Source of the DNA: Parasphaerochaeta coccoides DSM 17374
Lineage (GTDB): Bacteria > Spirochaetota > Spirochaetia > Sphaerochaetales > Sphaerochaetaceae
DNA: 64,000 nucleotides
NCBI RefSeq assembly: GCF_000208385.1
Contig: NC_015436.1
Location: forward strand, 1,302,001-1,366,000
Direction of reading: 5' to 3'
Part shown: piece by piece, positions 34,671-58,432 of the stretch
How the letters are laid out: each line of letters begins with the position of its first letter
Position numbering within the stretch: the stretch's first letter is position 1
Position numbers and translations under genes: made by a program
Notes under the pieces: model-generated
Seen by the model: the letters and a program-made list of their open reading frames with translations, nothing else
The model's database searches: none
Told to the model about the DNA's origin: nothing

Positions 34671-35812
34671 TCATTTCTCAGGGGCATGGAAGGGCAAGTT
34701 CCGAGTGCGTCCGGCATTCGCCTTGGCCACTGGAAGCCCCTGGATGACTGTCGTGAACGTCTCTCCGTCTTCGGACGTCTGAAGCTTGAACTGTATCGTC
34801 GCACGTCCTGCCACAACGGCCATGATATCGTAGGATGCGAAAGGTGCGCGGGAGTGACCTTTCTTGTCCGGGTATATGTCACATCGCTCCCATTGGCCGT
34901 AATCATCACTTGTGGCGTACTCTCCAGTCCCTGCCCTGTCACGTTGATGACGCTCTCGCCTTCTACCACGCCCTCCGGGGAGACGGTGAAGACATGGGAA
35001 CTCAAAGAAAGGTTCAGGATCTTGCCGTCCTTTCCCGCATAGCCGTCCCGCACTACCGTGATGGTTTGTGTGGCCATGTAATACATCGTCTCGGAATAAG
35101 AGTGCTTCCATGTACACATGTAGGCTCCGGTCTCAGAAACGTCGAGGGCCTTGCCCGTCCCCTCGTCCGTGTCCTGTGTCGTTCCTTCCGTCCGGCTTTT
35201 CCAACTGAACTCCGCTCCGTCGTAATCGGCGCTCACGTCCTGTCCCTCCTCGTCAAGGAGCTGGGCGTGGATGGTCGTCGTCCCTTCGGCAGGCAGGGGA
35301 GCGGCGTACAGAATCAGCGTGAACTTCGTCCGGTCGTCAAGTCCCTGGAGGAGACCGGTCGTATAGGTGAAGAACTCCTCATCCAACAGCGAGGACGCGC
35401 CATAGTATGCATCGAACCGGGCCTTGAGGACTGCTCCGGATATGTCTGACGGCGTAGTCAAGTCGTGAAGCACGTCGCCCAGCTGGTCGTCAAGCACAAG
35501 GTATGCCTGCGCATAGCTCACGTATACCTGCTGCTCTTTCATGCCATAGCTTTCCGCCTGAGAGCTGTACAGGGCGTGACTGGACTGCATGGTTTTCCAC
35601 TCGCGGTACAAAATTGATTTCTCGGATGGAGTGAGCACATCGTCGCTGGTCATCTCCCCGATCTCTGCCTTGATCCTGGCAAGGTCGCGCTTGGCGAGCT
35701 GTGCATCGGCGATACGTTTGATATCGCCGCTCGTCTGCCTGGATTGAGGATGCAGTTCCGTTATTTCATCGACGACGAGGCTCTTTCCTGCGGCATTGTA
35801 TTCATTGCTCAT
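34671..35812 (-). pseudogene. Phage tail fibre/tip-like structural protein, frameshifted
   Basis: ATG at 35812 overlaps the giant gene's stop (ATGA). The first frame (about 320 residues) has SLVVDEITELHPQSRQTSGD, a helical domain with LTPSEKSILYREWKTMQSSH of the kind seen in phage tail-tip and fibre proteins, then Ig-like beta domains (DGAEFSWKSRTEGTTQD, AYMCTWKHSYSETMYYMATQ) and a DGYAGKDGK linker. Near 34850 the frame must shift to continue as PFASYDIMAVVAGRATIQFK, ending HAPEK at 34671. Position directly after the gp16-like gene is where T7-like phages place the tail fibre. The DNA polymerase fragment follows the stop without a gap. Confidence 0.6.
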
Positions 35813-38800
35813 CTCCACCACCCCCATAAATCGCCATAGTCAGACCCGAACATCTCCAGAGGATTCCCATCCTTTACAGCGTTGAATGTCCGCTGGATTG
35901 CCGTTGTCGGGATGGCGAGAGTTTTGCCTGCATCCCTGACGGCATTCCAGAGCTTCTTGGAAAGATTTTCATCACCGTTTGCTAATCCAAGAAGGAACAG
36001 TCCCGACGTGAACGGAAGCCCAATCAGCCCTGTGGATGACCACCCCTCCATGCCTTGGGAAACTTGAGGCCCAACATATGGAACCAAACTCTGAACTATA
36101 TTCTTTCCAATCTCTATGGCAAAGTCTTTTTCCTTGTCGTCATCATCGCCGAAGAGAACGCCTTTCGCCAATGCCATGAAAGCCCATGACAATCCAAGCC
36201 CAACTGCGGTACCGGCCAGCTTTCTCCAGTTCTTCTGTCTGAAATAGAACGGCATGTCGTAGTAGACCATGTTCAACTGCTGGAAAATATCATTGGTGAA
36301 CATGATGGCAGTTCTCAACCAAGGATTCTTTGAGCGTTGGACTTTTGCCAGATCAGTCACGCTGGATGAGCTCTGCGTCTCCGCGACAATCTGGGATGCC
36401 CTGTACACAGCCTCAGCTTCCAGCCGCGCCTCCCATCCTTCACCAGTCTTGCGGTATTTCTCAGTGTTCCGCTGGACGAACGTCGTGTATCCGCTCTGCC
36501 ACAGGACAACCTTGACCGCCTGGTCGACGAACTCGACTCCCTTGAGACCGATGGTGTTCACATTTCCCATGAATCGTCCGAATCCACTCTTGTTCGTCTG
36601 GTTATGAAATCTGAGAATCTCCACATCAAAGGTCGATGCTTTCAGTTCAGGAGCTTTTGCATAGATTGATTCCATGGTTTCCTCATGATTGACCACCAGA
36701 TTCCGGGATGCCTTAAGAAATTCCACAGGACTTATGTCCCCCCGGAGAGCGAACGACAGTGAAGCCAGCTGCTTGATTGGCGTCATGGCGTTGTAGGCCA
36801 GTACCGCAGCGGCACTGTTGGACAAGAGAGTATTGTACATGCGGTCCAGATCATCAAGGATGAAGTTAGGAGATCCTGCGTCGTTCACGTAGGCTTGGAT
36901 CTGATCTTTTGCACCCTTGCCATATTTGTACTCCAGGACAGCCCCCATCGAACCGTGCTGTCCGAGAAGGTAATGGGTGTCCCTGACCCACTCCGCCCAT
37001 GCCATGAAGTGTTCCTGTCGGCGTACCTGCTGAGTGTAGATGTTGGTCACATCCAGTCTCATCTTATACTTGGCGTGTGGTTTTACCGCTTTGGTCATGC
37101 CTTTGTCCGTGTACCGAACTTTCTTGCTATCGGGTCCTATCAGAACGTCAGTATTTCCCTCGGTGTAATTCCCTTCGGATACCCATGTGAAATATTTATC
37201 CCTTCTGCCAAGAATCTCGTTGTAGACGCGATAGAATACTTCGTACATACGATTGTACGCTTCGTCCCCGCCCAGCTCACTCATCATGTACTCGGCCCAG
37301 GCCTTGTCATTGCCGCTGAGGAGATTGATGGCTTCCGACAGTTTTTCAATCGGGATGTTGTTGCCCCATTCCCTGATAAGTTTTTCAAGGGAGAACTCAT
37401 TCTGCTGATAGATGTACATGCCCATGACCTGGTCGCGTGTGAATTCAACGTCCTGCCCTGCGCTCGTCTTGTAGGAGAAAATCTTCTCACGCAGATGCTT
37501 TGTGGTCATGCCCAGCTCTTCCATCTTCTTTTCAGAGGCTTCGAGTCGGCGGGTCACATGAGATTGCTCCTGCTGGTTCGCCAAGAATGACTGACGGGCG
37601 AAAAGGTCATACAGGACCCCTTCCCTGTTTCCATCGAACTTACGAGCAAGGCGCTGTATCTTTCCGAATGAATTCCTGACGACTTCCCAGGCATTGTCTT
37701 TTCCGTGCTCAGGTTCAGTCTTCACAAGCTCACTGATCAACTCATCCCAATCCACGTCCTTGCCATAGGTCTGCCGATAATATGCCGAAGCATATCCTCT
37801 CAACCTTCCCATGCGCTCTTCATTCCGCGTACTCAATGCCGCACGCGCGTCCATGGCCAGCAGCTTGGCGGCTTCCCGCAATTCCTGTAGTTCTGAGATT
37901 GACCAGTCATTGATAGGACGGTTGAACCGGACGACATCGCCGACATACTGGGAAAGATGTTCCGGAACCGCCCCGACATCACCATCTTTACGCCAGTCCT
38001 TGATCTGCTTCCGGGATCTGTTTTTCGGGTCAACCATAGCCTGAAGCATCTGCATGTCGTCGATGTAGGCGGCATCCATGGTATTCTCATTCCATGTCGT
38101 GGACTTCTTGATTTCTCCAAACAGATGGGATCTGGCTTCTTTCAGCCTGTGAGCTTCAAGCTTCCTCTGCAAAGCGGTGAGAATAGCAGTCTGTTTCTTT
38201 TCCTCCGCGCGTGATTCCTTGAGCGCGGCCCTCAGTTCTCCGATCCGCTGGTTTTTCTTTTTCTGTACTGTCAGTTCCCTGGAAATTTCCCGTACCTTGG
38301 ATTTCGCATCCTCCGCCCGCTTCCTGACGGTCTTGATCTGTCTCTGCAAACCAGCCTTGTCTTTGGCCGCCTGAACCATATACCTGTCGAGGATGATACG
38401 GGAATCGGCTTCCATCGCATCAATCTGGGTTTGAGTCACCGGACCGTCGGCAGGTTTCATGTCCACCGATTCGACAAGAGGCTCATCTGCATAGTGGGTA
38501 CCGAACAGTTCATTCTCAACGTCTTCTCCGACTTCTTCCAGATAAGCGGCGACGTCATTGGCAGTCGCATAGGCGTTGTTTCCATCTTCGCTGTTAGTAA
38601 TCCGGGTGGCTACACGGTAATTGGCCTGTTCAACGACCAAGAGAGCGTTCCGATATGCCCGCGGATTGTTCATGATGGCCTGGCGGGCCCTGGCGAATTC
38701 TTCGGGAGATGATGACTCTTTCAACCTCAGCACATAGGGAGAAACACCGGGGAACGCTCCGAATCGAGCGCGGACGAATGTATAGACAGGCTTCCTTCTC

Positions 38801-41800
38801 TTAGGGAAATATTTGGTATCGACATCGCTATATACCCTGAGGGACGTGACCAGTTCAAGAAGTTTCTTATCCGAAGAAAGATACTTGTTCACAAAAAGAC
38901 GATCCCGTTGATCACGGGATTTCAGATGGGCGTATGCGTAGACTTTCCCAAAGAAATATTCATCTGCATCCATCCAGTCTTCAGGCGTGACATGTTCGTC
39001 AACAAAATCCCTGTCATAGACCTTCGGGTCATTTTTCATCGCCTCCATGAAATCCTCAGAAGTCTGATACTCGCGAGCTCTCTTGAGCAGTTCAGGCGAT
39101 GCGTTGATCATGCTCCGGAGATTCATTTCCTTGACGGCCCATTCCTTTCCCTGGGCGGCGTATTCATCTACTACCGAGGTCGGGACGTAGTAATTCCCTC
39201 CCAGGGCATGCTGCACATCATTTTCCCGTTGATTGAGGATTTCTTCCTTCGCCTCGTCGGAGAGCTGGTAGAGCGCCGCCTCGCCGTCTGTCGATATCTT
39301 GTCTGACTCCTGAGAATTAGGTATACTTAAAGCAGAGGAGGACTCTATGGCGGTCAAATACTTTGATATCTGCGATATCCCCATGAGAACCGACGAGGGA
39401 GGATTTTTCTTGGAAGCGGTACTCGTTCCTTCTCCTGATGGTAAGTCCGTCATCGAGAGGAAACCGACTGAACGGGAAGGCGGGATGTGGGAGCGCAACA
39501 GACTCGACAGTTCCCTGCTTTCCCGCAAGGTTGCCGAGGCCTTGGCGCTCAATCCCGGCTTGTCGTATTCGAATCCCTTTGAGGAATAGACTTCTACACT
39601 CCATGCCTTGAGTGATTCATATAACCTATCGATTCTTTCGGTGATATCCTTCCCGAACAGCGCGGTATATTTTTCCTTGCTTCGAGAATACTTTTCTAAT
39701 TTCCTCGCCTCGGCATATATCAGGTGTCCGCCGGTTTCCTTTGCATGGAATATCGCCTTGCCCAGGAGCTGGACTTCACCGATGAATCCGTTGGACATGC
39801 GGATGTTCACCGTGAAGTCCTTGTAGCCGAAATCGGTATCCTTCTTCTTTTCTCTGGCGACGATGTCCGCATGCTCCTTGAGAATCCGCTCGTAGGCGGC
39901 CTGCGCGTCACCGGACTCCTCGAAGACGAGCATCGCGCCGTTGATGTCCAGCAGACGCCCCCAGTCCCCGCCATAATCCTGCGCGACCTTCACCCTGGCA
40001 CGCTCGACGCCCTTGAGGTCCGGACGGAACATGACTGCATCATCAGGCAGATGGAAGGCCGCTGCCATGGCGCGTACAGTATCCGAGAACTCCGTACGGG
40101 ATTCCTCGGCAAGGGCATAGACGCGTGACTCTCCGCCTTCATTTTCATTAAAAGGCACGTCCATACGTACTGAAGCAGTCTGGAATAATACGTTCGGGAA
40201 GTCTTCCTGATACGGGATGTCTGGATTGTCCGGGTCGAATGTGTCGGTGGCGGACTTGATTTGTCCGGGATCAAACACCGCTATGCCTGTGCCTGATTCA
40301 TCATGCACATAGACACCATCATGCCCCGCATCCCTCCATTGTGCGACCTTTTGAGGCGATTCCGCGTCATGCTGTTCGATACCGGATGACATCTCGTTCA
40401 CCGGATTCTTTACAGAAAGAAAAACCGGAATGACGTCCCTTTTCCCGTGTGCCGCTCGTTTTGCAGACTTTTCATCAAACCCCAAATAAATGGTTCCTGC
40501 GGAATTCCCGCTTTGCAATGGTGTGGATTCATTGTCCGTCGCATGATAGGCCACCAGAGGTTCGCCATTGGAGTCGATGACGCGGGAAAAATTCTTGACA
40601 TTCGCAAAAATCCGTGCTATTTCTTGCTTGAGATTGGAAGCTCCGGTAGCTGATTTTTCAGCCGGACCGGTCAGAGCGGCTTCCAATCTTTTTATATCTT
40701 CATCAACATAGACATTATGTACATAGAAATAATTGGCGTCACCCTCTTTTTCTCTTACCCTGATGAATACGTATTTCCGCTCTCCATCCAGCTCAACGGG
40801 AGCAATGAAGAAATGACTTGTGAAGTGTTCCTGATTGATATGCGGAATCTTGCCTAGATATGCGCCTTGTTCCAAAACTCGTTTAATGACAGGCAATACA
40901 AACACCTTATTGGGGTATAGTGGTTTATGACTCATGGAGTTCTGAACCCCTGTTTCATCAATTATGACAGTTCCTATCACTGTCTCAGCGTTGCCGACGG
41001 GATTTTCCTGAATCCACTTCTTTGCGGCATCAATGATTCTCCTGTCTCCAATGTGAATATCATGGGAAGATACAGACGCAATGGGTTTCCCCTCCATGAG
41101 AGCCGACGCCTCCCAGTCCCCGAACCATTCCTTGAACGCCGGAGTTCGTACCGTCACCCATTGTCTTTCCGTGAGGTTCGTCGGCTTTCCGTTCGGAGCC
41201 TTCATCCACAGGTCTGTTCCGCGATAACGGGTTTCAACCTCAGTGTACTGACGCTGGGCCTCTTGTGGTGTCAGGGAGGATTCCTGCTGGAACAGCTCCA
41301 CAGCCCGTCCCGCGCGGTTCTCTGCCGTGCCGTCTTCGCTGAAAAGTCTGTCGAACGCCTGGATGACATCCGCGGAGAGCCTGTCCTTGAACTTCTCCAC
41401 CAAAGCCTTGAGAGCAGCCTTGAAGCGCTCGAAGAAAGGCTTCATCTCCTCGATGGGTGCGATTCCCCGGCCAAGGTATCCTGTCCCGTCCTCGGCGAAA
41501 CGTTCCTCGAACGGACGAACTACATCGAGCGCCTCCTCATACGTGGAGAACTCCTTTTTTCCGAGATAGAACTTCCCGTCCCTTTCCTTGATGTCCTCAA
41601 GCCACATCTCCCCGTCCGTCCCGCCATACGCTTTCACGAAGGGAGCCATAAGTTCCTTGGGAACCAGAGGGCGCATGAAATGGAGCACTTCATGGGGAAG
41701 CGTCGAGGCATCGGCCTTCTTGGATATGTGGACGGTATACACGGGCTTCCCATTCACCAGCGACGGTCTTTCGAGGAAACCGAGAGCGACCTTGTCCTTT

Positions 41801-43668
41801 TGGGGAGCAGGAATCTCCGTATCCAGCGTGAACGTCAGGTGATTCTTCAACAGATCGTCGGTGTTCATCTTCAAGGCCTGCCCGACGGCAAGGACGGCGT
41901 CGACATTCGCGTCCATATCGGAGCGGGATATGCGCCCCTGCGTATGGCTGACAAGGTCTCCAATCGCCTCCTCGACCATCTCCCGCTCGCGTGCCTGGAT
42001 CGCCCGGTCTGCGCTCATCGTGCTCAGACGGTAGGGGACTTCCACCGTGGGCAGGATGGACGCGTCCGCCTCGGAGCTTTCCATCTGTCCGTCATCAAGA
42101 GCCAGGGAAACGCTCATTTTGGAATTGTCGACCATGATGTCATATTCATTCCCCCGTGTTTCAAGGGCCATGCGAGATATCTGGTCCCGTGCAGCATCAA
42201 AGTCTTCCTGAGATTCAAAGACCAAGGTGTTGCCGCTCAGACGTGAACCGAAATGCAGAGCCATCGTGTTGATCTGCTCCGCCTGGGTATTCCCGTCCGC
42301 CTGGGGGATGTCAATGACCTGTACGCGGGCGGCCCGTGTCCCCTGCCTGTCAGCCGTAGATATCTTCCGTGCATCCTCGGCGGACGCAGGGATAAGGACT
42401 CCGTTGCCTTTATAGACCTTGGGAGGTGACATCTTCCCGGTTGATTGAGGTTCGGCGGACTCTACAGGACTCGTGTCAGGATTCAGGATATAGCGGCGAT
42501 CGACAACGGACGAACCATCTTCCTTGGCATAACTTTTGTTGGCTTCTGCATTCATACGCCGGGCATATACAGTCTCTCCTATTCCACCAGTGACCAGTCC
42601 GGAAAGGACCATGCCCTTTGCGCCCTCCCACATGGCCTTGCCTGCATTCCGAGCCATCTGCGGGATATCGATACCCTCAAAGTCCGCTCCGTTCTTGTTC
42701 GCCGCATCGGTGAGGATGTTTCTCACGGCATCGGACACAACGGACTGGCCACCTTCCTCCAACGATTCTCCGACCAATCCCTTTATCCAACCGGCTCCAA
42801 ACTCTTTCAAGTAACCGGACATGGATTGTTTTGCTGCCTTGGAAAATGCATTGGGCGTTATGAGCTTGTTCAGGTGCTTGTATCCGGGGAACCACTCCAT
42901 ACCAACGACTTCTATCCCGCCCTGCACCAGAACATCCAGAACGAACAGTCCTTTGGCAAGGGGACTTGTCATGTCCAGCCTTTCGCCGTTGGCGTCCTCC
43001 ATGTGGTACATGTCGTAATAATCGTTCCCCGCCTGGGAGGAACCGGACTCGATCACATGGAATGCTTTGGCCAGGATTTGCCCCGCAGTGAGGGCCACCC
43101 CTCCGACACCCCCGGTGAGCAGGGATACTCCGCCCTTGATCAGCAGGTCCTCAAGGGCGAACTTTACACCGGAATACAGGGGTTGCGCTGAGGCGACAAA
43201 GAGGTCTCCGAGAACATTGTAATCCTCAAAGACACGGTTCTTTTTCAGCTTTTCATTGAAATCGTCGGCCACCTTCATCCATTTATCATCCCCTGTGGCG
43301 ACGAATTTCGTCGTTGCTATCCCTTTACGATCCTGCCACCAGGCATTTCTCAAGGCAACGAGAAAGCTCTCTCCTGCACTCTTGCGATCCGTGTTCCGGT
43401 TCGCCAAGGATGAACCCTGTCCGGTCTGCATCATCTGCATGCCGGACTCCACGGGAATGTTCATATATTTTGACAGCAAGAGGGCACCCTGAGCCTGTGT
43501 CGCCGTACTGGAAGGATCAGGAGAAGAATCGATGAGTTCTTGCAGCAAAGGAGTCACCGCTCTGGCTTCCTGATCCTTCTGACCGAAGTAGTCGCCGTAT
43601 ATCTTCTCTCCACGGAGGTTATATTTGCGGTAGACATCGCTGTCGAAGAAATCCAAGGGATCGTACAT
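35809..43668 (-). CDS. Giant polyvalent ejection protein B (gp16-like position), 2,619 residues
   Basis: Domains by approximate residue: 100-390 Gly/Ala-rich amphipathic and hydrophobic segments (GGVSLLTGGVGGVALTAGQI); 655-665 zincin motif HEVLH; 834-853 NLTERQWVTVRTPAFKEWFG; 1027-1165 ART-like domain with NGEPLVAYHATDN and GHDGVYVHDESG; 1186-1340 RelA/SpoT-like domain (DYGGDWGRLLDINGAMLVFE, FGYKDFTVNIRMSNGFIGEV); 1743-1840 coiled coil; 2483-2505 membrane segment (GTAVGLGLSWAFMALAKGVL). These are polyvalent-protein modules. Order after a gp14-like and a gp15-like gene and before a fibre gene matches T7 gp16, so I infer injection with the DNA. ATG overlaps the upstream stop by 1 nt. An antisense ORF lies within residues 1360-1441. 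Confidence 0.75.
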   Translation of the reverse strand: MYDPLDFFDSDVYRKYNLRGEKIYGDYFGQKDQEARAVTPLLQELIDSSPDPSSTATQAQGALLLSKYMNIPVESGMQMMQTGQGSSLANRNTDRKSAGESFLVALRNAWWQDRKGIATTKFVATGDDKWMKVADDFNEKLKKNRVFEDYNVLGDLFVASAQPLYSGVKFALEDLLIKGGVSLLTGGVGGVALTAGQILAKAFHVIESGSSQAGNDYYDMYHMEDANGERLDMTSPLAKGLFVLDVLVQGGIEVVGMEWFPGYKHLNKLITPNAFSKAAKQSMSGYLKEFGAGWIKGLVGESLEEGGQSVVSDAVRNILTDAANKNGADFEGIDIPQMARNAGKAMWEGAKGMVLSGLVTGGIGETVYARRMNAEANKSYAKEDGSSVVDRRYILNPDTSPVESAEPQSTGKMSPPKVYKGNGVLIPASAEDARKISTADRQGTRAARVQVIDIPQADGNTQAEQINTMALHFGSRLSGNTLVFESQEDFDAARDQISRMALETRGNEYDIMVDNSKMSVSLALDDGQMESSEADASILPTVEVPYRLSTMSADRAIQAREREMVEEAIGDLVSHTQGRISRSDMDANVDAVLAVGQALKMNTDDLLKNHLTFTLDTEIPAPQKDKVALGFLERPSLVNGKPVYTVHISKKADASTLPHEVLHFMRPLVPKELMAPFVKAYGGTDGEMWLEDIKERDGKFYLGKKEFSTYEEALDVVRPFEERFAEDGTGYLGRGIAPIEEMKPFFERFKAALKALVEKFKDRLSADVIQAFDRLFSEDGTAENRAGRAVELFQQESSLTPQEAQRQYTEVETRYRGTDLWMKAPNGKPTNLTERQWVTVRTPAFKEWFGDWEASALMEGKPIASVSSHDIHIGDRRIIDAAKKWIQENPVGNAETVIGTVIIDETGVQNSMSHKPLYPNKVFVLPVIKRVLEQGAYLGKIPHINQEHFTSHFFIAPVELDGERKYVFIRVREKEGDANYFYVHNVYVDEDIKRLEAALTGPAEKSATGASNLKQEIARIFANVKNFSRVIDSNGEPLVAYHATDNESTPLQSGNSAGTIYLGFDEKSAKRAAHGKRDVIPVFLSVKNPVNEMSSGIEQHDAESPQKVAQWRDAGHDGVYVHDESGTGIAVFDPGQIKSATDTFDPDNPDIPYQEDFPNVLFQTASVRMDVPFNENEGGESRVYALAEESRTEFSDTVRAMAAAFHLPDDAVMFRPDLKGVERARVKVAQDYGGDWGRLLDINGAMLVFEESGDAQAAYERILKEHADIVAREKKKDTDFGYKDFTVNIRMSNGFIGEVQLLGKAIFHAKETGGHLIYAEARKLEKYSRSKEKYTALFGKDITERIDRLYESLKAWSVEVYSSKGFEYDKPGLSAKASATLRESRELSSLLRSHIPPSRSVGFLSMTDLPSGEGTSTASKKNPPSSVLMGISQISKYLTAIESSSALSIPNSQESDKISTDGEAALYQLSDEAKEEILNQRENDVQHALGGNYYVPTSVVDEYAAQGKEWAVKEMNLRSMINASPELLKRAREYQTSEDFMEAMKNDPKVYDRDFVDEHVTPEDWMDADEYFFGKVYAYAHLKSRDQRDRLFVNKYLSSDKKLLELVTSLRVYSDVDTKYFPKRRKPVYTFVRARFGAFPGVSPYVLRLKESSSPEEFARARQAIMNNPRAYRNALLVVEQANYRVATRITNSEDGNNAYATANDVAAYLEEVGEDVENELFGTHYADEPLVESVDMKPADGPVTQTQIDAMEADSRIILDRYMVQAAKDKAGLQRQIKTVRKRAEDAKSKVREISRELTVQKKKNQRIGELRAALKESRAEEKKQTAILTALQRKLEAHRLKEARSHLFGEIKKSTTWNENTMDAAYIDDMQMLQAMVDPKNRSRKQIKDWRKDGDVGAVPEHLSQYVGDVVRFNRPINDWSISELQELREAAKLLAMDARAALSTRNEERMGRLRGYASAYYRQTYGKDVDWDELISELVKTEPEHGKDNAWEVVRNSFGKIQRLARKFDGNREGVLYDLFARQSFLANQQEQSHVTRRLEASEKKMEELGMTTKHLREKIFSYKTSAGQDVEFTRDQVMGMYIYQQNEFSLEKLIREWGNNIPIEKLSEAINLLSGNDKAWAEYMMSELGGDEAYNRMYEVFYRVYNEILGRRDKYFTWVSEGNYTEGNTDVLIGPDSKKVRYTDKGMTKAVKPHAKYKMRLDVTNIYTQQVRRQEHFMAWAEWVRDTHYLLGQHGSMGAVLEYKYGKGAKDQIQAYVNDAGSPNFILDDLDRMYNTLLSNSAAAVLAYNAMTPIKQLASLSFALRGDISPVEFLKASRNLVVNHEETMESIYAKAPELKASTFDVEILRFHNQTNKSGFGRFMGNVNTIGLKGVEFVDQAVKVVLWQSGYTTFVQRNTEKYRKTGEGWEARLEAEAVYRASQIVAETQSSSSVTDLAKVQRSKNPWLRTAIMFTNDIFQQLNMVYYDMPFYFRQKNWRKLAGTAVGLGLSWAFMALAKGVLFGDDDDKEKDFAIEIGKNIVQSLVPYVGPQVSQGMEGWSSTGLIGLPFTSGLFLLGLANGDENLSKKLWNAVRDAGKTLAIPTTAIQRTFNAVKDGNPLEMFGSDYGDLWGWWR
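39299..39327 (+). promoter_or_regulatory. Promoter of nested antisense gene, copy B
   Basis: TTGTCT (39299-39304), 17-nt spacer, TATACT (39322-39327), then AGGAGG at 39336-39341 and ATG at 39347. Spacing at every step is near ideal. It is identical at 51324-51352 in the paralogous gene. Confidence 0.65.
39347..39589 (+). CDS. Nested antisense small protein, copy B (80 residues)
   Basis: An ORF on the strand opposite the giant gene, beginning MAVKYFDICDIPMRTDEGGF and ending AEALALNPGLSYSNPFEE. It has its own promoter and an AGGAGG five nt before the ATG. The product is soluble and acidic-basic mixed, with no signal peptide and no recognised family. The opposing giant protein in this stretch is Ser/Pro-rich and featureless, as expected of a linker tolerated on the antisense strand of a real gene. 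Copy A at 51372-51614 has 69 of 80 residues identical. Third codon positions of the two frames coincide, so substitution pattern alone cannot decide which strand is selected. Possible immunity or antitoxin role toward the adjacent RelA/SpoT-like domain is inference. Confidence 0.6.
   Translation: MAVKYFDICDIPMRTDEGGFFLEAVLVPSPDGKSVIERKPTEREGGMWERNRLDSSLLSRKVAEALALNPGLSYSNPFEE
41118..41359. repeat. About 240-bp repeat, copy in giant gene B
   Basis: Closely similar to 53243-53484. It encodes the segment from RAGRAVELF through TQEAQRQYTEVETRYRGTDL to TERQWVTVRT that leads into the ART-like module in both giant proteins. Confidence 0.75.
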
Positions 43669-46454: not shown

Positions 46455-47240
46455 TTACTCCCACAACCATTTACCAGTGTTTGTGTTCACCATGCTACGT
46501 GCGCCCTCATACAGGCCGCCGAAGATATCCCCGGCCATTGCCCAGCCTGTCGTAATACGTCCGGTGGTCTTCATGTAATCGATGTCCTCCTGGAGATTCC
46601 CGGCGTTCATGTCATACATCTCCTTCGCCTGGGAAAGGGAAAGGTCGATTTCCTCCTGCACCCGTGCAAGATTGGAATTGTTCGCGTCCACCTGACGCCT
46701 GTATGCCTCGGTCTGTTCTGTCGCGCTCGTATAGGCATTGAGGGCGGATGAGTATGTCTGGACGTGGCTGAGCCCAATCTGCTGACGTGCCAGCGCCAAG
46801 GAATCATCCGATGAGCGCTGGGCATTCTCCAGGACATTGCCTGCTGTCCCCGAATTGCGGAAGCCGCTGGTGGCGACCTGCTGCAAAGCCGTTCCCTCAG
46901 TCTTCTGGTTTTCCACCGCCAGTGTCGCCACCTGGGAAGATGCTATCTGGGAAGCAAGACTGCCCGCCCTCGATGCCTGACCAAGAGCCACCGCCCGGTT
47001 CTGTTCGGTCTGAATCGCAAGAAGATTCAGTTCGGTATTGGCCTCACTGGTTTGCGCCTGTGCCTGCGTCTTTTGTAGATTCAGACTGCTCTGGGCCTGA
47101 CTGTACTGCTTGTCCAGGGACTCCTTGGAACGGTTGAGTTCTTCAAGCTTGGCTTTATATTCAGCGTTGCGGGCAATGGACGAGGCGATGCCTTTGCCAA
47201 GTCCGAGGATGCCTCCGGCGATTGCAAGGGCGAGCATCAT
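46455..47240 (-). CDS. Small membrane-active ejection-type protein (gp14-like position), 261 residues
   Basis: Starts with a glycine/alanine hydrophobic segment (MLALAIAGGILGLGKGIASS) followed by long heptad-rich helices (LNRSKESLDKQYSQAQSSLN, NLARVQEEIDLSLSQAKEMY) and ends NTGKWLWE. This is the typical look of internal virion protein gp14 of podoviruses. Its ATG overlaps the preceding stop as ATGA. The preceding coding sequence at that point is the tail-tube-B-like tail fused onto giant protein A, which is the expected upstream gene in a T7-like order. Confidence 0.65.
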   Translation of the reverse strand: MMLALAIAGGILGLGKGIASSIARNAEYKAKLEELNRSKESLDKQYSQAQSSLNLQKTQAQAQTSEANTELNLLAIQTEQNRAVALGQASRAGSLASQIASSQVATLAVENQKTEGTALQQVATSGFRNSGTAGNVLENAQRSSDDSLALARQQIGLSHVQTYSSALNAYTSATEQTEAYRRQVDANNSNLARVQEEIDLSLSQAKEMYDMNAGNLQEDIDYMKTTGRITTGWAMAGDIFGGLYEGARSMVNTNTGKWLWE

Positions 47241-50200
47241 GCGACATCAACCTCCATTACGATTGCAAGGATGGTCATGGGATCATCCTCGACGCCTTCT
47301 ATGACCAGCTGAAGCTGCTTGTCAAAGCCTGTAGAGGTATACACATCAGCATCATCGGAACCGATCTCCCGTGTCGGAGGCTCCATGCGCTGGGTGGAAC
47401 CAATGCATATCCGCCCCGTCTGATACATGCGGGCAAAGACGCGAGAGACTTTCTTCACCTGTCCGATGGATGTCTGGGTCTCGAAGGGATTGAGAACCAC
47501 ACGAGGAGTGAACTGGATAGCGTCATCCCTGTCGTGCCAGTCATCACAGACGCTTTCATCGAACCTCTCGATGACCGTCTCTTCTTCGCGGGACGTGAGG
47601 ATGTACACGTCCTGTCCATCAGGAGTATCGACCACCGTGACCGACTGGGAGACTTCCCCGGCAAAGGAAAGCATGAGGTTCTTCCAGTACTCTTCCTCGT
47701 CATCCCCAGGGAACAACGCCCCGCCGATGAGGAGCATGGTCACCCAGTTGAGTCCGAGACCCGCAATCATGCCGATAGCCTTCTTATAATCCTTCTGCCT
47801 GAAATACCGGGGGATGTCAGCCCAGATCATGTTGAATTCCTTGACCCCCTGTGTGGTGAACATCGTCAGCCATTTGATGAGCTGGTTGTTCGTCCGGTGC
47901 AGCTGGTCGGCGTCCAATACGGTCGATGTCTGCTGGGTGCGCTTGATGAAGGCGGTCGCCTCCTGCGAAGCTTTGGCGGAATCCATGCCCTTCTTCATGG
48001 CGCTCTTGTACGCCCCAAGCCAGAGCGTGTTGGCTATGCAGGAGTCCGCCCACTGTATGGGACTCATGGCCAGCTCCCCGACTTTCTTCATGGTGCGGCC
48101 ATACTTCGTCCGTGTCTCGATTCCCTTGATATCAAGGAAGGCACGCTCGGCGACACGATCCTGCATCTGGGGAGCGAGGGAATACACACGCTTGGTCGTC
48201 CCGTCGAAGTCGCTCATCATTTCCTTGGAGGCGGACATCAGGTCGATGGGTGAGAACTCTCCCATGAACATCCACACGGCACCGGTCTGCCTCAGGACCG
48301 TGGCGACGTTGAAACCCAGCTTGGCGATTGCATAGTTGGACCGGAGCTTGTCGAACAGCCCCTTCAGGTCGGTATTGACAAGGTGAGGGGACGCGATGTC
48401 GTTGAAGTACCGTTGTATCCAGTCGGCGTATTTCTTGGAATGATTGCGGGCGATGAGATCATACAACCCGCCCTTTTTCTTGTTCAGCGTGTACTGCATC
48501 CCTTTCACTATGCCTGCAAAATTGATGAAATGCTCCTGCTTCTTGATCTGGTTCTCAAAGACGGCAACGGCGTCCAGGTTGATCTCGTAGGCGCTCCATG
48601 ACGACCTGTGGCGGGTCTGGGAACGTCCGACATATTTCTGAGAGGGACCATACCCGCTCATCAACACGTCCTGTTGCGATTCCTCGGCCTCCATCGGCAC
48701 CAGCGGCCAGTAATCGGCGACCTTGTGCATCGGGATGTTATATTCCTCGGCCAGAACCTTTGCCATGGCCTCTCGTGTGACACCCATCTCCTTCTTCATC
48801 CATTGGGCAAGCTCGATGTAGTGTGGTTCAAGCTGCCCGACCATGTATCTGATGTCCTCGTCGCTGTATGCATGGGTCAGTCCCGGACCTTCAATGTCGA
48901 TGGGTTTGCCCTTTTCATCCAGGACAAATCCTTGCAGCTTCTGACGGTTCGTCTTGTTGCTGCTGTTCAGATAGATTCCCATGCCTTGGCTGCGGGTGAA
49001 ATGCCGCCCGCTGGGTGTGAGGATCGTATGGGCGTACAGGTCGTCCTGCGTGATGCCCAGCTCCTTCATCTTCGCTTTCCATGCATCGAGCCGCCGGTGA
49101 ACCGAGGCCGATTCCGCAGTGGCCGCCACGTCCAGGCGGTCACAGAGATCGTGCCATACGCCGTATTCGTTGCGCCAGTCAAGTTCCCACGCCATGTTGC
49201 GCGGAGTGAACAACCATGCCTTGATGCCCTCGATGAGCGTGCCTTTATTCTCTTGCTTGATAGCTTCCTTGCTCTGGGGATCCGTGACCAAAGGTTTCTG
49301 GCCGTCCGTCCCTTTGCCGTAATGGAGCAACTCCTGGTTGCCGACCGCGGAAACGAACGTCTCTGATGCGCTCCAGGCCCGGTTTCTCCGGACGGTCTCG
49401 TCCTGACGGGCCCGGAGCCTGATCTGGGAGACAAGCTCGTCCATGATCTGCAATTCCTTCAGGCTCCACCTGTTCAGAGGCTTGTGCAGCGTGATCGTCC
49501 CGTCCTCCTCGGTGACGATGATGCCTTTCATCTCCTGGGGAATCTCGACAACGTAGCCTTTCTCCTGCTGCCAGTTCGCTATGCGCTTCTCAGAGCGGAA
49601 ATTCGGGTCAATCAGCTGGTTCAGGAGATTCCCTATCGGTTCATACCATGCCGCGAGGTTAGGGTTCCATTTCTTGGAGATGTTGCGGGCATGCTGGATC
49701 ATCTCCTGCCTCACGGCCTGCCGTCTCCTGACATTCCTCAGGCCCCGCACCTGGCGCTTGAGGCTGAGGACCTGTGCCGTCTGCGCCTTGAGCCTCCGGT
49801 TCACCGCGCGGTTGAAGTCCTCCTCCCCCTGGACATCCTGCCACGTCAGGGAAAGGTCGCGGACATTGCGGGAGAAGGTGGTGTTGTCCACCCACTCGTC
49901 AAGGCCGAGGGTCTGCTCATAATACAGCTGCTGGCGCTGGTATTCATCCCCGGCCGCGGCAAGCAGCTTGCGGAAGTAGCGGGGATCTCCCTTCATGAGC
50001 TTCATGACGGCCTCGACCTGTTTGGGCGTATTCTCTCCCCGGATGGTGAGCGCCCACATCTGCGGCGGCATCTGACCGCGGGTGATGCCATTCTCACGCA
50101 GCTGCTTGGCAAAGGACACCACATCCCGGACGGTATTCGCATAGTTAGCAAGGAACGATGCGTTGGCGACCGCAGGAGTTGACAGCGAGTATTCCTTGTC

Positions 50201-53200
50201 CAGGCGTTTGATGAACCGTACGTCCGAGCCGGAGGGCATGTCCATATCAACCTCTCCTTCGGCCTTTAGCATCAGATTGAAACGTGCCATGACGATCTGA
50301 TAGTCCTCAAGCGTCCCCCAGGCAAGGCGGGCGGACTCCTGTTCCTCAAGGCTCTTGAGGGCGGCGGTGCGTTCCTGCTCGACCTGATCCCGTGCCTCCC
50401 GGTACAGGCGGAGCATCTCAAGGTTCAGGACCTTACGGAATTGGATTTCCCACTGCACGTCAGGGTCGTCGCTGAACTCCTGGAGGATGTCATCTGATAC
50501 CCGGTATCCGGCCTCCAGGGCACGGATTACCTCATCACGGTTGCGCCTGCGCTGTTCCTCCTTTGCCTTCGGGGAAAGCTCGAACAGCTCCTGATCCGGA
50601 TCGGGAGAATCATTGTTGACAACGTCTTCTTTTGTCAGTATCATCTTACCTAGAGCTGGGATGCTTCCCTCTAGCGGCAATTGGAGCCTACTGACTGGAA
50701 GCCTTGAGAAAATCCCAGCTTCTTTTTTTTGGTATCGCAACAATCCTTCATCAATCCAATTTTGGAGTGCGTTTATAGATTTCCCATAGGCAGATGCAAT
50801 AAGGTTTGCCGTGATATGTCCTGTCCGTTCATTAGGATGTAGAGCTACAACAACTGGATTGCCTTGAATGTCCAGCATATCAAGAACTGCTACATACCCC
50901 TTGCTTGTAGAAGCAAATACCAAAAAAGGATCTTGTAGGGCATCGGGCAATTGTTTGAGGATTGCCTTGTCAATTGAATTGATGTGTCCCTTTTCTTTGT
51001 CGTACAGAATAGTTTTCATCTTGCTTCGATACATGACAAGAGGCAGGTTCGGAAGACCGAGAGCTTGAAAAATAATGGGCGTATGATGAAGAACCTGTGC
51101 ATGCCCTCTTCTCACCACATCCGTGATGGAATTGACTTCTCGCCCGAACCATGCAAGATCTTTCTTCTGCAACCTTTCCCTGTCCGCCCGCTCCCGTGAT
51201 GCTATGTTGACAATATCCTCTTTCATGATTAGGCTGTCATTAAGTTCACGGATATCAGGAGAAAGCCATTGTAGCCGACCACCTATCCGTGAGCTTTCTT
51301 CTTTTACGCCGTCTGCCGATATCTTGTCTGACTCCTGAGAATTAGGTATACTTAAAGAAGAGGAGGACTCTATGGCAGTCATGTATCTTGATATCTGCGA
51401 TATCCCCATGAGAACCGATGAGCGCGGATTTGCCTTGGAAGCGGTACTCGTTCCTTCTCCTGATGGTAAGTCCGTCGTCGAGAGGCCCCCGACTGAAAGG
51501 GAAGGCGGGATGTTCGTACGCAACGCATTGGACAGTTCCATGCTCTCCCGCAAGGTCGCCGAGGCCTTGGCGCTCAATCCTGGTTTATCGTATTCGAATC
51601 CTTTGGAGGAATAGACTTCCACACTCCATGCCTTGAGAGATTCATATAACCTATCGATTCTTTCGTAGACATCCTTCCCGAACAGCGCGACATATTTTTC
51701 CTTGCCATAACGATACTTTTCAAATTTCCTCGCCTCGGCGTATATCTCGTGCCCGCCGGTTTCCTTCGCATGGAATATCGCCTTGCCCAGAAGCTGGACT
51801 TCGCCGATGAATCCGTTGGACATGCGGATGTTCACCGTGAAGTCCTTGTAGCCGAAAGGAGTATCCTTCTTCTTCTCTCTGGCGACGATGTCCGCATGCT
51901 CCTTGAGAATCCGCTCGTAGGCGGCCTGCGCGTCACTGGACTCCTCGAAGACGAGCATCGCGCCGTTGATGTCCAGCAGACGCCCCCAGTCCCCGCCATA
52001 ATCCTGCGTGACCTTCACCCTGGCACGCTCGACGCCCTTGAGGTCCCGACGGAACATGACTGCATCATCAGGCAGATGGAAGGCCGCTGCCATGGCGCGT
52101 ACGGTATCCGAGAACTCCGTACGGGATTCCTCGGCAAGGGCATAGACACGTGACTCCCCGCCTTCATTTTCATTAAAAGGCACGTCCATACGTACTGAAG
52201 CAGTCTGGAATAATACGTTCGGGAAGTCTTCGGTCTGGAAAAGAATGCTTGGATTCGTCGCATTAAATGTTCCAACGTTATCAGTGGCGGATTTGATTTG
52301 CTCAGGGGCGAAGGCACCATAGTAGGTGTCTTTGACAAGCTCATCATCGGTCTGATTGGAAATAATCATTCCATCATGGCCAGCGTCCTGTGCTTTTTGA
52401 ATCAAAGGTGCTTCAGCCGTTGGGTCGGTGAATTGTCCAGACGGAAGGCTGGTAATATAAGGATTGCGTATATTCAGGTACGCTTCAACAATCCTGTCTC
52501 CATTCCGTTCCTCTGCCATTGCTTCCGCATAATCCATGCTTTCAGAAAACCAAGAGACTCCATCTTTCGATTGGAATTCAGAAAAATCCTTGTCCGTACC
52601 ATGATAAACGACACGCGGTTCTCCGTTTTCATCTACTACCACGGAAAATCCTTGCAAAAGTGAAAATAATCGTTTATCTTCTATAGCGTAAGAATCTTTT
52701 GGGGCACGAGCTGGGCTTGTTAACCAGGGAGTGCCATTGTTCTCCTGTCTTGAATACGGGAGAGCAGCCAAAAGGTTCTTAACTTTTTCAAGACTGCTCA
52801 GTTTGTGGTCGTAATAGTATTTTCCACTCTCTTCCCTGAGAGACGAGCGTACGACATATCGGTTCCCATTGTATTCGAACAAAGACAGAAGATAGGTAAA
52901 CTTCCTGGCGTTCCCATCGGTAAAAGACCCCAATATCTTACCGTTTTCAATGAACTTGGGAATAGCAAATAGTGAAGCAAGATGTTCCTCGTTCAGATAG
53001 TCGTGCCGGAGCAAATCGTCAAGAGAACTCCTATTAAACTCAATTGATTCTTGGCTGTCCTTATTTATATAGCTCGCTCGAATCCCGGCGGTCATGGTGC
53101 GTATTTTCTTGCGGGTATCCGATGCATTATCCGATACTGAAAATGGAAGTTTTTCTCCACTCACAACCGATGATGATTTCTCCAAAGAATCGATGATTGT

Positions 53201-55840
53201 CTCAATTTTTGAAGCGGCGTCAGGAATGACGGTTTCCCAATCCCCGAACCAGTTTTTAAATGCCGTCGTTCGTACCGTCACCCATTGTCTTTCCGTGAGG
53301 TTCGTCGGCTTTCCGTTCGGAGCCTTCATCCACAGGTCTGTTCCGCGATAACGGGTTTCAACCTCAGTGTACTGACGCTGGGCCTCTTGTGGTGTCAGGG
53401 AGAATTCCCGCTCGAACAGCTCCACCGCCCGTCCCGCGCGGTTCTCTGCCGTGCCGTCTTCGCTGAACAGCCTGTCGAATGCCGCGACCGTTTCCGGGGA
53501 CAGGTAGTTCTTCAGGTAGCGGATGAGCTCTTTCAGGGCCTTCTTCATCGTCTCGAAGAAGGATGTCAGTTCCGGTTTCGGAGCCTTGCCCGTCTGCACG
53601 TATGTCACCAGGTCATCGGCGAAACGTTCCTCGAACTGCGCCGCTGCATCGAAGGCCCTCTGGCGGTCGTCGTATGTCGTGCCGTTCCACACCCATTTCC
53701 CGTCACTGCTCTGAATCGGACGTTCATACCATTTCCCGTCCTTCACGCCATAGATGCTCTCGAAGGGCGCAAGCTGCTGAGCCGAGAGGCTCATGCGCGT
53801 CACATGAGACAGCTCATGGGTCACGGAGCCGACATCGGCGTCCTCGGTCAGGTGGATCGTGAACCGACCGTCCTGCTCACGGCTCACGCTCGCCAGTTCG
53901 CCTGCCCTGCGCCTGTCGGTGCGTATGACGAAGGGCGTGTCAGAGAAGCGCGTCTGCATGAACTGGTCGACCGTCATGCCGGTGATGCGGCTCATGACGC
54001 TGATGAAACCCGTGGTCGCCGTGACATCGGCGTCAGAGAGATGGGGAGCCGCGGCCTTTATCGTGGGGGCGACCGCATGTTCCAGGTATCCGCTTTCCAG
54101 CTCGGCATCGGATGTCCCCCTGAACGTCCGCACGAAGGCGTTGCCGGAATCAGTGTTTCCTGCGGCAAACGGGGCATCAGTCATGGGAGAGGCGGCGTCC
54201 GCGTAGCCTTCGGTCGTGAAGGAGATTTTCGTGAAGGAACCGTCATCCTGCCGGAAGGTCAGCTCTACGGAAGACTCCTTCACATCGACGCCGAACACCG
54301 AGGGTTCCCGGTTCACCAGGCCGGAGACGGAAGCGCTCATCTCCTGCGGATCCTGGAAGACTACAGTGTTCCCGTTCACCCGTGCGTCAAACGCTACGGC
54401 CATGGTATGCGCCAAGTGCCGGGTTTCTTCGTTCTCGACCGTCTCTGGCGTGACCTTGGTGACGTTCGCCCCCACGATGCCTGAAGCTTGCAGATCCGCA
54501 AGACGCTGGGCGTCTTCGGGATGCACCGCCTTCAAGCCTCCTCTGAATTCCACAACGTCAATCGGAGGAAGCTTTTTGGTTTCAAGTTTTTTCAGCTCGT
54601 CCTTCGAGAGCTTCCTGCCCTTCACTCCGGATGTGTCCACCCACCGGGAGTTGACCGCCGTCCCTTCCTGGTACATCTTGTTCGCGTCACTGCCCACCTT
54701 GCCATTGGTCACAGAATCAACGAGAACTTCCGAGACAGTGCCAAAGCCACCTGTCAGCGCGAAGGCCGCAGCAGAGCTCTTGGCGGTGTCCCACAGGCGA
54801 TTGTAGTATTCTTCCCCTTTGGCATAGTCATAATGCGCACCGGCCTCATTCGCGGCCATCTTGTATGCTTCCACGCCAAGCATGGTCACCAGCTCCTGCG
54901 AGACTTCCTGGGCGGTGTTCTCCCCGATGCCCTCGATCAGATAGGTCTTTACAGCGCCTTTGAGAATGCTCTTCAAACTCTGTTTCGCCGCTTTGTCTAT
55001 CGCCGTCTGTGAACCGGCGCGGTAAAGGGTTCTCACTCCGGGCATGGAACTCAGCTGCCAATGCTCCAGGAACATATTCACCAGTCCGACGGCATCGGAA
55101 ATCTTGCGCTTCGTGTCCTGGTCGACCTCAATGCCGTATTCCTCTGCCAACGCATCAATTTCGGCGGAGGTTGAACCGCTCTCAATCATCCCCATGGAAG
55201 CACTTGCGGCCCATCCTCCAATCTGTGCGCCAAGGCGCAGGCCTCCCGCCACACCGCTTGCCGCGCTGACAAGGCCGCCGATTCCCGCTGTTATTCCTGT
55301 GAAAGCAAGTTGTATCGCGAGCTGTTGGATGAAAGGAGACGCACCGATGAACCATTCAGCGACAGCGCTGCGGTCCTGAAAGTCCTTCATGGTGGCCGCC
55401 GACTGCCTGAATCCTTGGGCGTTCCTGCGGTACCGCTGGACGATCTCCCCTTCTGAATGGTCCGCCATCCATTGGTTGAGTCCTGCCATCTGCTGGTAAT
55501 ACCCTTGCTTTATCCCATCTGCAAATGCGCTCCACCCTGAGACATCATCGGTGCGCAGCCCTGTATAGTGCTTGAGGATGGACGAAGAGTTCTTATAGGC
55601 GTCGGAGAAGCTCATGCCCGTGGCGGCGGATGCCACGTATGCTATTTTTGTCCGGGCTTCGGCTGACTTTGGATCGTCCCCCATCTGCCAGATCGCGCGG
55701 AGATTGGATTGAAGCGTATCATTCGCCTGTATCTGCTGCGCTGTCAGGGCCGTGATGAGACGCCCCTGGGAATCATACTTGTAGGAATCCGTCTGCTGAT
55801 AGTTCCGGTATATGGGTTGGAATGTGAATTGCGTGTTCAT
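47237..55840 (-). CDS. Giant polyvalent ejection protein A fused to tail-tube-B-like C-terminus, 2,867 residues
   Basis: Approximate residues: 150-390 hydrophobic/Gly-rich (FTGITAGIGGLVSAASGVAG); 670 zincin HELSH; 852 TERQWVTVRT; 1065-1200 ART-like (VVVDENGEPRVVYHGTDKDF); 1237-1390 RelA/SpoT-like; 1590-1715 MuF-C-like (LGLPNLPLVMYRSKMKTILY, LPDALQDPFLVFASTSKG); a long coiled region; 2683-2707 membrane segment (AIGMIAGLGLNWVTMLLIGG). From about 2732 the sequence changes to VYILTSREEETVIERFDESV...RICIG...DDPMTILAIVMEVDV, the look of a tail tubular protein B C-terminus. The natural end of a gp16-like protein, as in protein B, is absent. So it is an in-frame chimera. It starts in ATGA overlap with the gp15-like gene A. 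Confidence 0.75.
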   Translation of the reverse strand: MNTQFTFQPIYRNYQQTDSYKYDSQGRLITALTAQQIQANDTLQSNLRAIWQMGDDPKSAEARTKIAYVASAATGMSFSDAYKNSSSILKHYTGLRTDDVSGWSAFADGIKQGYYQQMAGLNQWMADHSEGEIVQRYRRNAQGFRQSAATMKDFQDRSAVAEWFIGASPFIQQLAIQLAFTGITAGIGGLVSAASGVAGGLRLGAQIGGWAASASMGMIESGSTSAEIDALAEEYGIEVDQDTKRKISDAVGLVNMFLEHWQLSSMPGVRTLYRAGSQTAIDKAAKQSLKSILKGAVKTYLIEGIGENTAQEVSQELVTMLGVEAYKMAANEAGAHYDYAKGEEYYNRLWDTAKSSAAAFALTGGFGTVSEVLVDSVTNGKVGSDANKMYQEGTAVNSRWVDTSGVKGRKLSKDELKKLETKKLPPIDVVEFRGGLKAVHPEDAQRLADLQASGIVGANVTKVTPETVENEETRHLAHTMAVAFDARVNGNTVVFQDPQEMSASVSGLVNREPSVFGVDVKESSVELTFRQDDGSFTKISFTTEGYADAASPMTDAPFAAGNTDSGNAFVRTFRGTSDAELESGYLEHAVAPTIKAAAPHLSDADVTATTGFISVMSRITGMTVDQFMQTRFSDTPFVIRTDRRRAGELASVSREQDGRFTIHLTEDADVGSVTHELSHVTRMSLSAQQLAPFESIYGVKDGKWYERPIQSSDGKWVWNGTTYDDRQRAFDAAAQFEERFADDLVTYVQTGKAPKPELTSFFETMKKALKELIRYLKNYLSPETVAAFDRLFSEDGTAENRAGRAVELFEREFSLTPQEAQRQYTEVETRYRGTDLWMKAPNGKPTNLTERQWVTVRTTAFKNWFGDWETVIPDAASKIETIIDSLEKSSSVVSGEKLPFSVSDNASDTRKKIRTMTAGIRASYINKDSQESIEFNRSSLDDLLRHDYLNEEHLASLFAIPKFIENGKILGSFTDGNARKFTYLLSLFEYNGNRYVVRSSLREESGKYYYDHKLSSLEKVKNLLAALPYSRQENNGTPWLTSPARAPKDSYAIEDKRLFSLLQGFSVVVDENGEPRVVYHGTDKDFSEFQSKDGVSWFSESMDYAEAMAEERNGDRIVEAYLNIRNPYITSLPSGQFTDPTAEAPLIQKAQDAGHDGMIISNQTDDELVKDTYYGAFAPEQIKSATDNVGTFNATNPSILFQTEDFPNVLFQTASVRMDVPFNENEGGESRVYALAEESRTEFSDTVRAMAAAFHLPDDAVMFRRDLKGVERARVKVTQDYGGDWGRLLDINGAMLVFEESSDAQAAYERILKEHADIVAREKKKDTPFGYKDFTVNIRMSNGFIGEVQLLGKAIFHAKETGGHEIYAEARKFEKYRYGKEKYVALFGKDVYERIDRLYESLKAWSVEVYSSKGFEYDKPGLSAKASATLRESMELSNALRTNIPPSLSVGGLSTTDLPSGEGTSTASKANPRSSVLMGISQISRYMTAIESSSSLSIPNSQESDKISADGVKEESSRIGGRLQWLSPDIRELNDSLIMKEDIVNIASRERADRERLQKKDLAWFGREVNSITDVVRRGHAQVLHHTPIIFQALGLPNLPLVMYRSKMKTILYDKEKGHINSIDKAILKQLPDALQDPFLVFASTSKGYVAVLDMLDIQGNPVVVALHPNERTGHITANLIASAYGKSINALQNWIDEGLLRYQKKEAGIFSRLPVSRLQLPLEGSIPALGKMILTKEDVVNNDSPDPDQELFELSPKAKEEQRRRNRDEVIRALEAGYRVSDDILQEFSDDPDVQWEIQFRKVLNLEMLRLYREARDQVEQERTAALKSLEEQESARLAWGTLEDYQIVMARFNLMLKAEGEVDMDMPSGSDVRFIKRLDKEYSLSTPAVANASFLANYANTVRDVVSFAKQLRENGITRGQMPPQMWALTIRGENTPKQVEAVMKLMKGDPRYFRKLLAAAGDEYQRQQLYYEQTLGLDEWVDNTTFSRNVRDLSLTWQDVQGEEDFNRAVNRRLKAQTAQVLSLKRQVRGLRNVRRRQAVRQEMIQHARNISKKWNPNLAAWYEPIGNLLNQLIDPNFRSEKRIANWQQEKGYVVEIPQEMKGIIVTEEDGTITLHKPLNRWSLKELQIMDELVSQIRLRARQDETVRRNRAWSASETFVSAVGNQELLHYGKGTDGQKPLVTDPQSKEAIKQENKGTLIEGIKAWLFTPRNMAWELDWRNEYGVWHDLCDRLDVAATAESASVHRRLDAWKAKMKELGITQDDLYAHTILTPSGRHFTRSQGMGIYLNSSNKTNRQKLQGFVLDEKGKPIDIEGPGLTHAYSDEDIRYMVGQLEPHYIELAQWMKKEMGVTREAMAKVLAEEYNIPMHKVADYWPLVPMEAEESQQDVLMSGYGPSQKYVGRSQTRHRSSWSAYEINLDAVAVFENQIKKQEHFINFAGIVKGMQYTLNKKKGGLYDLIARNHSKKYADWIQRYFNDIASPHLVNTDLKGLFDKLRSNYAIAKLGFNVATVLRQTGAVWMFMGEFSPIDLMSASKEMMSDFDGTTKRVYSLAPQMQDRVAERAFLDIKGIETRTKYGRTMKKVGELAMSPIQWADSCIANTLWLGAYKSAMKKGMDSAKASQEATAFIKRTQQTSTVLDADQLHRTNNQLIKWLTMFTTQGVKEFNMIWADIPRYFRQKDYKKAIGMIAGLGLNWVTMLLIGGALFPGDDEEEYWKNLMLSFAGEVSQSVTVVDTPDGQDVYILTSREEETVIERFDESVCDDWHDRDDAIQFTPRVVLNPFETQTSIGQVKKVSRVFARMYQTGRICIGSTQRMEPPTREIGSDDADVYTSTGFDKQLQLVIEGVEDDPMTILAIVMEVDVA
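51324..51352 (+). promoter_or_regulatory. Promoter of nested antisense gene, copy A
   Basis: TTGTCT (51324-51329), 17-nt spacer, TATACT (51347-51352); AGGAGG at 51361-51366 and ATG at 51372. Confidence 0.65.
51372..51614 (+). CDS. Nested antisense small protein, copy A (80 residues)
   Basis: Begins MAVMYLDICDIPMRTDERGF and ends AEALALNPGLSYSNPLEE; paralogue of 39347-39589 with 11 substitutions and no gaps. The conserved blocks are DICDIPMRTDE, LEAVLVPSPDGKSV, PTEREGGM and LSRKVAEALALNPGLSYSNP. Same promoter and AGGAGG site. It lies antisense to residues about 1409-1490 of giant protein A, directly C-terminal to the RelA/SpoT-like domain. No family recognised. Confidence 0.6.
   Translation: MAVMYLDICDIPMRTDERGFALEAVLVPSPDGKSVVERPPTEREGGMFVRNALDSSMLSRKVAEALALNPGLSYSNPLEE
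53243..53484. repeat. About 240-bp repeat, copy in giant gene A
   Basis: Partner of 41118-41359. The distance between the partners is 12,125 nt, against 12,025 nt for the 924-bp repeat, so these are two separate conserved modules. Confidence 0.75.
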
Positions 55841-58422: not shown

Positions 58423-58432
58423 ATGTCCTCCG

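Follow-up and report, generated by a model that had tools for sequence, protein, structure and literature searches.

Why would a giant phage gene carry a much smaller gene on its opposite strand, immediately behind a domain that resembles a known toxin? The question is raised by a 64,000-nucleotide stretch of the Parasphaerochaeta coccoides DSM 17374 genome (contig NC_015436.1, positions 1,302,001 to 1,366,000), here called the window, which belongs to a single 2.23-Mb contig. An 80-codon open reading frame (ORF) on the plus strand (39347..39589; ATG at 39347, TAG ending at 39589) lies entirely within the 2,619-codon minus-strand ORF of a polyvalent-type gene, giant B (35809..43668), and immediately behind the part encoding its RelA/SpoT-like (Tas1-like) domain, a predicted toxin (39593..40179, minus strand). 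It is close to certain that the small antisense gene is a real gene. The reading favored here, with a probability of roughly 0.8 judged from sequence, structure models, and analogy, is that it encodes an immunity protein that would bind and block the RelA/SpoT-like domain.

The nested gene has its own signals on the plus strand: a -35-like hexamer, TTGTCT (39299..39304), a 17-base spacer, and a -10-like hexamer, TATACT (39322..39327), found both by reading the sequence and by a promoter scan, followed by a Shine-Dalgarno sequence, AGGAGG (39336..39341), read from the sequence. The scan, covering 39200-39800, returns this site alone (shuffled sequence averages 0.3). An initial annotation, made from the letters alone, had named these elements and the nesting behind the domain, and each is found in place; it had also called the opposing giant-protein stretch serine-rich, and serine indeed makes up 22% of that stretch vs 6% elsewhere in giant B. 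The genome carries three copies of the small gene. The second (51372..51614, plus strand, 80 residues, protein 86% identical) lies inside the window's second giant gene (47237..55840, minus strand, 2,867 residues) with the same promoter (TTGTCT from 51324, TATACT to 51352) and AGGAGG, behind a RelA/SpoT-like domain (51618..52204, minus strand) that is 94% identical. Domain, nested gene, and promoter together form a 925-base module (39282..40206, minus strand), shared at 93% by 51307-52231 of the second giant gene. The third copy is about 357 kb distant, within a third giant gene (L011).

At every locus found where the frame reads on past the domain, a small antisense ORF accompanies it. The domain profile A5, searched in 139 genomes of the order, detects nine loci in seven genomes, and at each of the nine the small gene follows the domain in antisense. 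Profile A6 was searched in genomes sampled evenly from larger groups: of 392 from the phylum, 5 carry seven loci between them, and of 394 from the class, 10 carry 13; the A5 and A6 searches combined give 15 distinct genome loci. Onward-reading frames with an antisense small ORF directly behind the domain number 15 of 15 (12 Spirochaete genome loci and three viral contigs), and each of these ORFs has a sigma-70-like promoter and lies fully inside the frame, in identical codon phase. Five genome loci with the antisense gene were located through the domain alone; the small genes of G495 and G491 were missed by the small-protein profile and found solely by inspecting the stretch behind the domain. 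Of the six loci added by A6, three (L060, L061, and L063, from two other families) have the domain within a long or contig-cut frame, and the antisense ORF is present in all three. The viral contigs L039-L041 are related (DNA 90-99% identical over most of their length), and a database protein of 79 residues begins at the same methionine as the viral nested ORF. At G026 the onward frame is short (369 residues), stopping 121 bases past the nested gene.

Relatives of the small protein number three by protein database search and 20 by profile search, and their names are from Sphaerochaeta and other Spirochaetales. No family for it was found in Pfam, PHROGs, NCBIfam, or PADLOC, and contig scans using the small proteins gave nothing new, one of them recovering only the G026 and G041 contigs already known. 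Profile comparisons with similarly placed proteins are weak: the probability is 1.6 for the L039 family 13 for a Bordetella phage protein described below, and 15 for the L060, L061, and L063 proteins, which are nevertheless collinear over 54 columns; all of these are taken to share the position, with homology unproven. Two candidates were dropped from the small-gene rows, namely L049, which faces a PhoH-like ORF and matches weakly (E 3e-4), and G041:C45 (L029), a 31-residue fragment. This fragment (G041:C45:20959-21051) is similar to the small protein's C-terminal part, and the domain profile search reported no match on its contig.

Homologues also exist outside the antisense position, at two loci (G037 and G500) in draft assemblies outside the seven genomes with a domain match in the A5 order search. 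At G037 the small gene adjoins two phage-type integrase genes, without the domain, and DNA similarity to the window extends from 6 bases before the Shine-Dalgarno sequence to 22 bases before the gene end. At G500 it lies among other genes on a 4.6-kb contig, likewise without the domain. Orphan immunity genes are known from other toxin systems, according to the accessible part of PMC12247911.

For the promoter comparison, the best -35/-10 pair lying no more than 60 bases from the start was taken, with spacings of 14-21 permitted. A spacing of 17 is best at 13 of the 15 nested loci and tied with another spacing at G137 and L039. The hexamers are TTGTCT/TATACT in the three own copies, TTGCCA/TATACT in G488, G490, and G495, TTTACA/TATACT in G491, TTGACC/CATACT in G041, TTGACC/GATATT in G026, TTGACG/GATAAT in G550 (twice), TTGCCT/GATACT in G137, and TTGACA/TACATT in the three viral contigs; related loci are not independent, and these rows represent eight separate groups. 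In four rows, two of them viral and two from genomes, the start used in the comparison is displaced by one codon or one base, which leaves the hexamers unaffected. The free copies G037 and G500 have no such -35/-10 pair; by eye, G500 has an extended -10. Antisense ORFs of at least 60 residues in 12 large genes offer 741 start-codon choices, of which 33 score 8.5 or more for the promoter; among these, the seven that also have a Shine-Dalgarno match of 5-6 bases all come from six nested genes of the small-gene family. One antisense ORF in the giant gene of G491 (L043:10971-11309, plus strand, 112 codons, TTGACG-16-TATAAT) was rejected despite its top promoter score because its product is serine-rich and the sense strand is nuclease-like by eye; it is probably spurious. 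At L010 (start 10219, minus strand) and L039 (start 4836, minus strand), the start lies 10 bases past the -10 with no Shine-Dalgarno sequence, and these nested messages are predicted to be nearly leaderless.

Which strand is coding is not settled by counts by codon position alone. At all 15 loci the nested and giant frames share third codon positions, and synonymous counts among the nested copies are therefore of little use. Compared with the free G037 copy, differences that are silent on the plus strand and change the minus-strand protein are in excess (11, 8.5, and 11 observed, about 4 expected), and the reverse, minus-silent kind is not (6.5, 3.5, and 5 for 5.1). A more powerful test scored codon usage in the sense and mirror frames, with training each time on the remaining giant genes. 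The sense-minus-mirror score is lowest at the nested stretch in all 8 giant genes tested (-0.44 to -0.03; the rest of the genes average 0.55 to 0.73), and of 4,431 overlapping windows outside the nested stretches, 0 score as low as the nested stretch of their own gene, although the score is barely negative in two genes and one other L010 window reaches -0.10. Both giant genes of the window have their minimum at the nested stretch, and the minima of L060, L061, and L063 coincide with their antisense ORFs. The stretch opposite the nested gene is 19-30% serine vs 6-8% in the remainder of the same eight proteins. Codon statistics thus do not favor the minus strand alone, and the earlier proposal of a real antisense gene is backed by homologues, two free-standing copies, promoters, codon usage, and the confident predicted fold of the small protein (structure model).

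The domain and the small gene have also diverged together. Between the window and the third own copy, backbone identity is 98.4% behind the module (1,331 bases) and 99.0% before it (311 bases), with 98.1% in the promoter stretch (54 bases) and 95.8% in the N-terminal half of the domain. Identity is 80.6% in the small gene (222 of its 243 bases aligned) and 78.5% in the C-terminal half of the domain (256 of 328 aligned), and 36 of the 38 protein differences in the domain fall in residues 86-195. Joint divergence of this kind is the trace expected of exchanged toxin-immunity cassettes with matched specificities, which these sequences may represent; other causes are possible. The ORF and its position, phase, promoter pattern, co-occurrence with the domain, joint divergence, and the predicted folds are computed results.

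The predicted fold of the RelA/SpoT-like domain is of the small alarmone synthetase type, and its best solved match, by sequence and by fold, is the type VI toxin Tas1. Residues D78, G118-Y119, E135, and H152, which presumably have catalytic-type roles, are invariant in 11 of 11 sequences. Two of six domains matched Pfam PF04607, the best at 21.0 bits against a cut-off of 27 bits, and the window's own domain had no match; an SduA match of one domain in PADLOC (E 0.0012) was taken as chance. The top structural match of the small protein, a weak one, is chain B (the immunity protein) of the Tas1 crystal, and a Foldseek search with its model yielded no reliable match in the PDB or viral libraries. 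An immunity or antitoxin role, as the initial annotation had suggested, is thus supported indirectly by co-occurrence, joint divergence, the match of the domain to Tas1, and the weak match of the small protein to the partner chain.

We infer the expression, toxicity, binding, protection, injection, and timing of this pair as follows. Ordinary toxin-immunity pairs have the immunity gene after the toxin and in sense. The frame of giant B runs about 1,260 residues past the RelA/SpoT-like domain, and because the toxin domain is thus in mid-protein, the immunity gene may have been written backwards into the linker, with its own sigma-70-like promoter, the giant-strand linker having become a serine-rich spacer. 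The domain would enter the cell as part of the giant protein, together with the phage DNA, and pyrophosphorylate a nucleotide; by analogy, its substrate would be ATP and its product (p)ppApp. A lysogen could read the nested gene independently of the late giant gene, and the product would shield it from the giant protein of its own and sibling phages. On entry of new phage DNA, this small gene would be one of the earliest to become readable. Giant B has the domains of polyvalent proteins (ART-PolyVal, 48.0 bits, cut-off 31.2; LPD3, 36.5 bits, cut-off 27), as do L043 and the second giant, which also has a MuF_C domain, and polyvalent proteins are regarded in the literature as virion-packaged and injected (PMC5512222 and PMC9503650, in the parts available). 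A bolder version, which we consider doubtful, sees a new toxin-immunity build: a mid-protein toxin would have its immunity gene overprinted antisense in the linker behind it, recombination could not part the two, and they would travel as one DNA block. The toxin would arrive as protein and the antidote only as a gene on the entering DNA, behind a promoter that can be read at once; a cell keeping the DNA would be rescued and a cell destroying it would stay poisoned, so that restriction of the phage would carry an injected penalty.

The reading has weak points. The small proteins of L039-L041 constitute a second family whose relation to the first is not demonstrable. Compared with the free G500 copy, the plus-silent excess is slight (7, 10, and 9 for 4.2-4.5; reverse kind 8.5, 10.5, and 9 for 6.8-6.9), and BLOSUM scores rate the minus frame as the better conserved one in each of the three comparisons.

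The alternative that survives best, though improbable, is that the small protein is real but acts as a chaperone or assembly cap that keeps the domain folded or inactive while the virion is assembled, rather than as immunity for the lysogen. Any tight binder would fit the position, the co-occurrence, and the joint divergence; an own promoter on the strand opposite the giant gene, free-standing copies without the domain, and a top structural match to an immunity protein suit immunity better. The initial annotation had suggested transcription collision or antisense RNA as a second layer of control. Very improbable is a mainly regulatory locus, in which the giant mRNA is limited by antisense RNA or by colliding transcription and the protein plays a lesser part: a promoter-like site does face the giant gene at every nested locus, but RNA control needs neither a frame kept to about 25-30% protein identity nor a confidently folded product, and the free-standing copies have no target. 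Least probable of all is a mirror artefact, in which selection on the giant's linker alone yields a conserved ghost ORF through the shared wobble position, for although the codon phase is constant, the compared nested copies have the minus frame both open and conserved (it is open in the free copies too), and with G500 it scores slightly above the plus frame, giant-strand codon usage is least sense-like precisely there, the linker is serine-rich like the one clearly spurious antisense ORF inspected, promoters and most ribosome sites are kept, plus-silent changes exceed expectation against G037, the small gene occurs without the domain in G037 (where DNA similarity is bounded by the gene) and G500, and the small protein is predicted with confidence to fold.

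Where the domain ends its protein, a small sense ORF comes next at three of five loci (PHB04, L053, and L054, the last two with ORFs of 72 and 68 residues). In Bordetella phage PHB04 (L044:5098-7363), the domain ends a 493-residue protein behind the portal gene; a 69-residue gene overlapping the domain gene by 1 base and an HD-type hydrolase gene follow, an order as in apk2-iapK-aph1. No small gene was seen at L062 (264 residues, terminal domain), and no partner gene was recognized beside the two tandem domain proteins of Photobacterium L045; both count against a sense rule. The L045 proteins (L045:5785-7617, plasmid pDA100) have, by eye, signal-like N-termini. Together the loci suggest a rule by which internal domains have antisense immunity genes and terminal domains have sense ones.

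Two further features of the giant genes were observed. The third own giant gene (L011:3555-9827) is shorter (2,090 residues), yet just before its RelA/SpoT-like domain it has an extra stretch, which we take to be nuclease-like, that is missing from the window copy. Long plus-strand ORFs at 40927-42246 (439 residues) and 57067-58527 (486 residues) lie opposite large minus-strand genes and are perhaps mere mirror frames.

Among known systems, the closest by structure is the type VI secretion pair of the effector Tas1 (Apk1) and its immunity protein Tis1. The domain and the small protein have their top matches in the two chains of that one crystal, with no detectable sequence similarity between the small protein and Tas1's immunity protein. 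The pair differs in belonging to a type VI effector, whereas here an internal domain of a phage giant protein has a nested antisense gene. The toxSAS modules are two-gene or fused operons in sense, and their toxins, unlike the window's domain, are not part of a giant phage protein; nor is the nested gene part of a co-directional two-gene operon of the type II toxin-antitoxin kind, being antisense with its own promoter-like site. A RelA/SpoT-fold toxin neutralized by a small partner, as proposed here, is nevertheless what FaRel2 and CapRel exemplify (PMC11782079, available portion). The Apk1-Tis1 pair is named in the available text of PMC12691689. In accessible parts of PMC5576092 and PMC12226406, MuF toxins of temperate phages are described as being followed by small immunity genes; some of these toxins have RelA-like domains, and IapK is reported to block the acceptor site. 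Apk2 MuF toxins with IapK and Aph1 are alike in combining a temperate-phage protein, a RelA/SpoT-type domain, and a small partner; Apk2 makes (p)ppApp, and its immunity protein acts by binding (same sources). Their toxin domain is C-terminal and followed by immunity genes, whereas here the frame continues past an internal domain and the small gene is antisense. RelA/SpoT domains occur in Spirochaete (pro)phage polyvalent proteins, the same giant-protein class as giant B (PMC5512222, in part); in the main text of that paper "immunity protein" and "antisense" occur 0 times, and no nested gene was seen in the passages available. Bacterial antisense overlaps, with one protein-coding gene opposite another, are described in PMC9927249 and PMC2396522, and among the overlaps in their accessible portions none places the partner of a toxin inside the gene of that toxin. 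The toxin fold and the immunity principle are known, and an immunity gene nested antisense in its own toxin's gene was not found in the literature searched (open-licence PMC papers). Immunity genes are usually sought downstream of toxins and in sense, and annotation programs commonly drop overlapping genes; the locus shows where antidotes still missing for toxin domains in the interior of giant phage proteins may be sought. It also offers a rare long antisense protein overlap, recurring across families and with a testable reason, so that the old question of whether prokaryotic antisense proteins are functional becomes directly testable. The finding joins the MuF toxin-immunity and Spirochaete polyvalent RelA/SpoT lines in an internal toxin domain with a putative antidote overprinted antisense, a predicted poison and its predicted antidote sharing one stretch of DNA in Spirochaete prophages.
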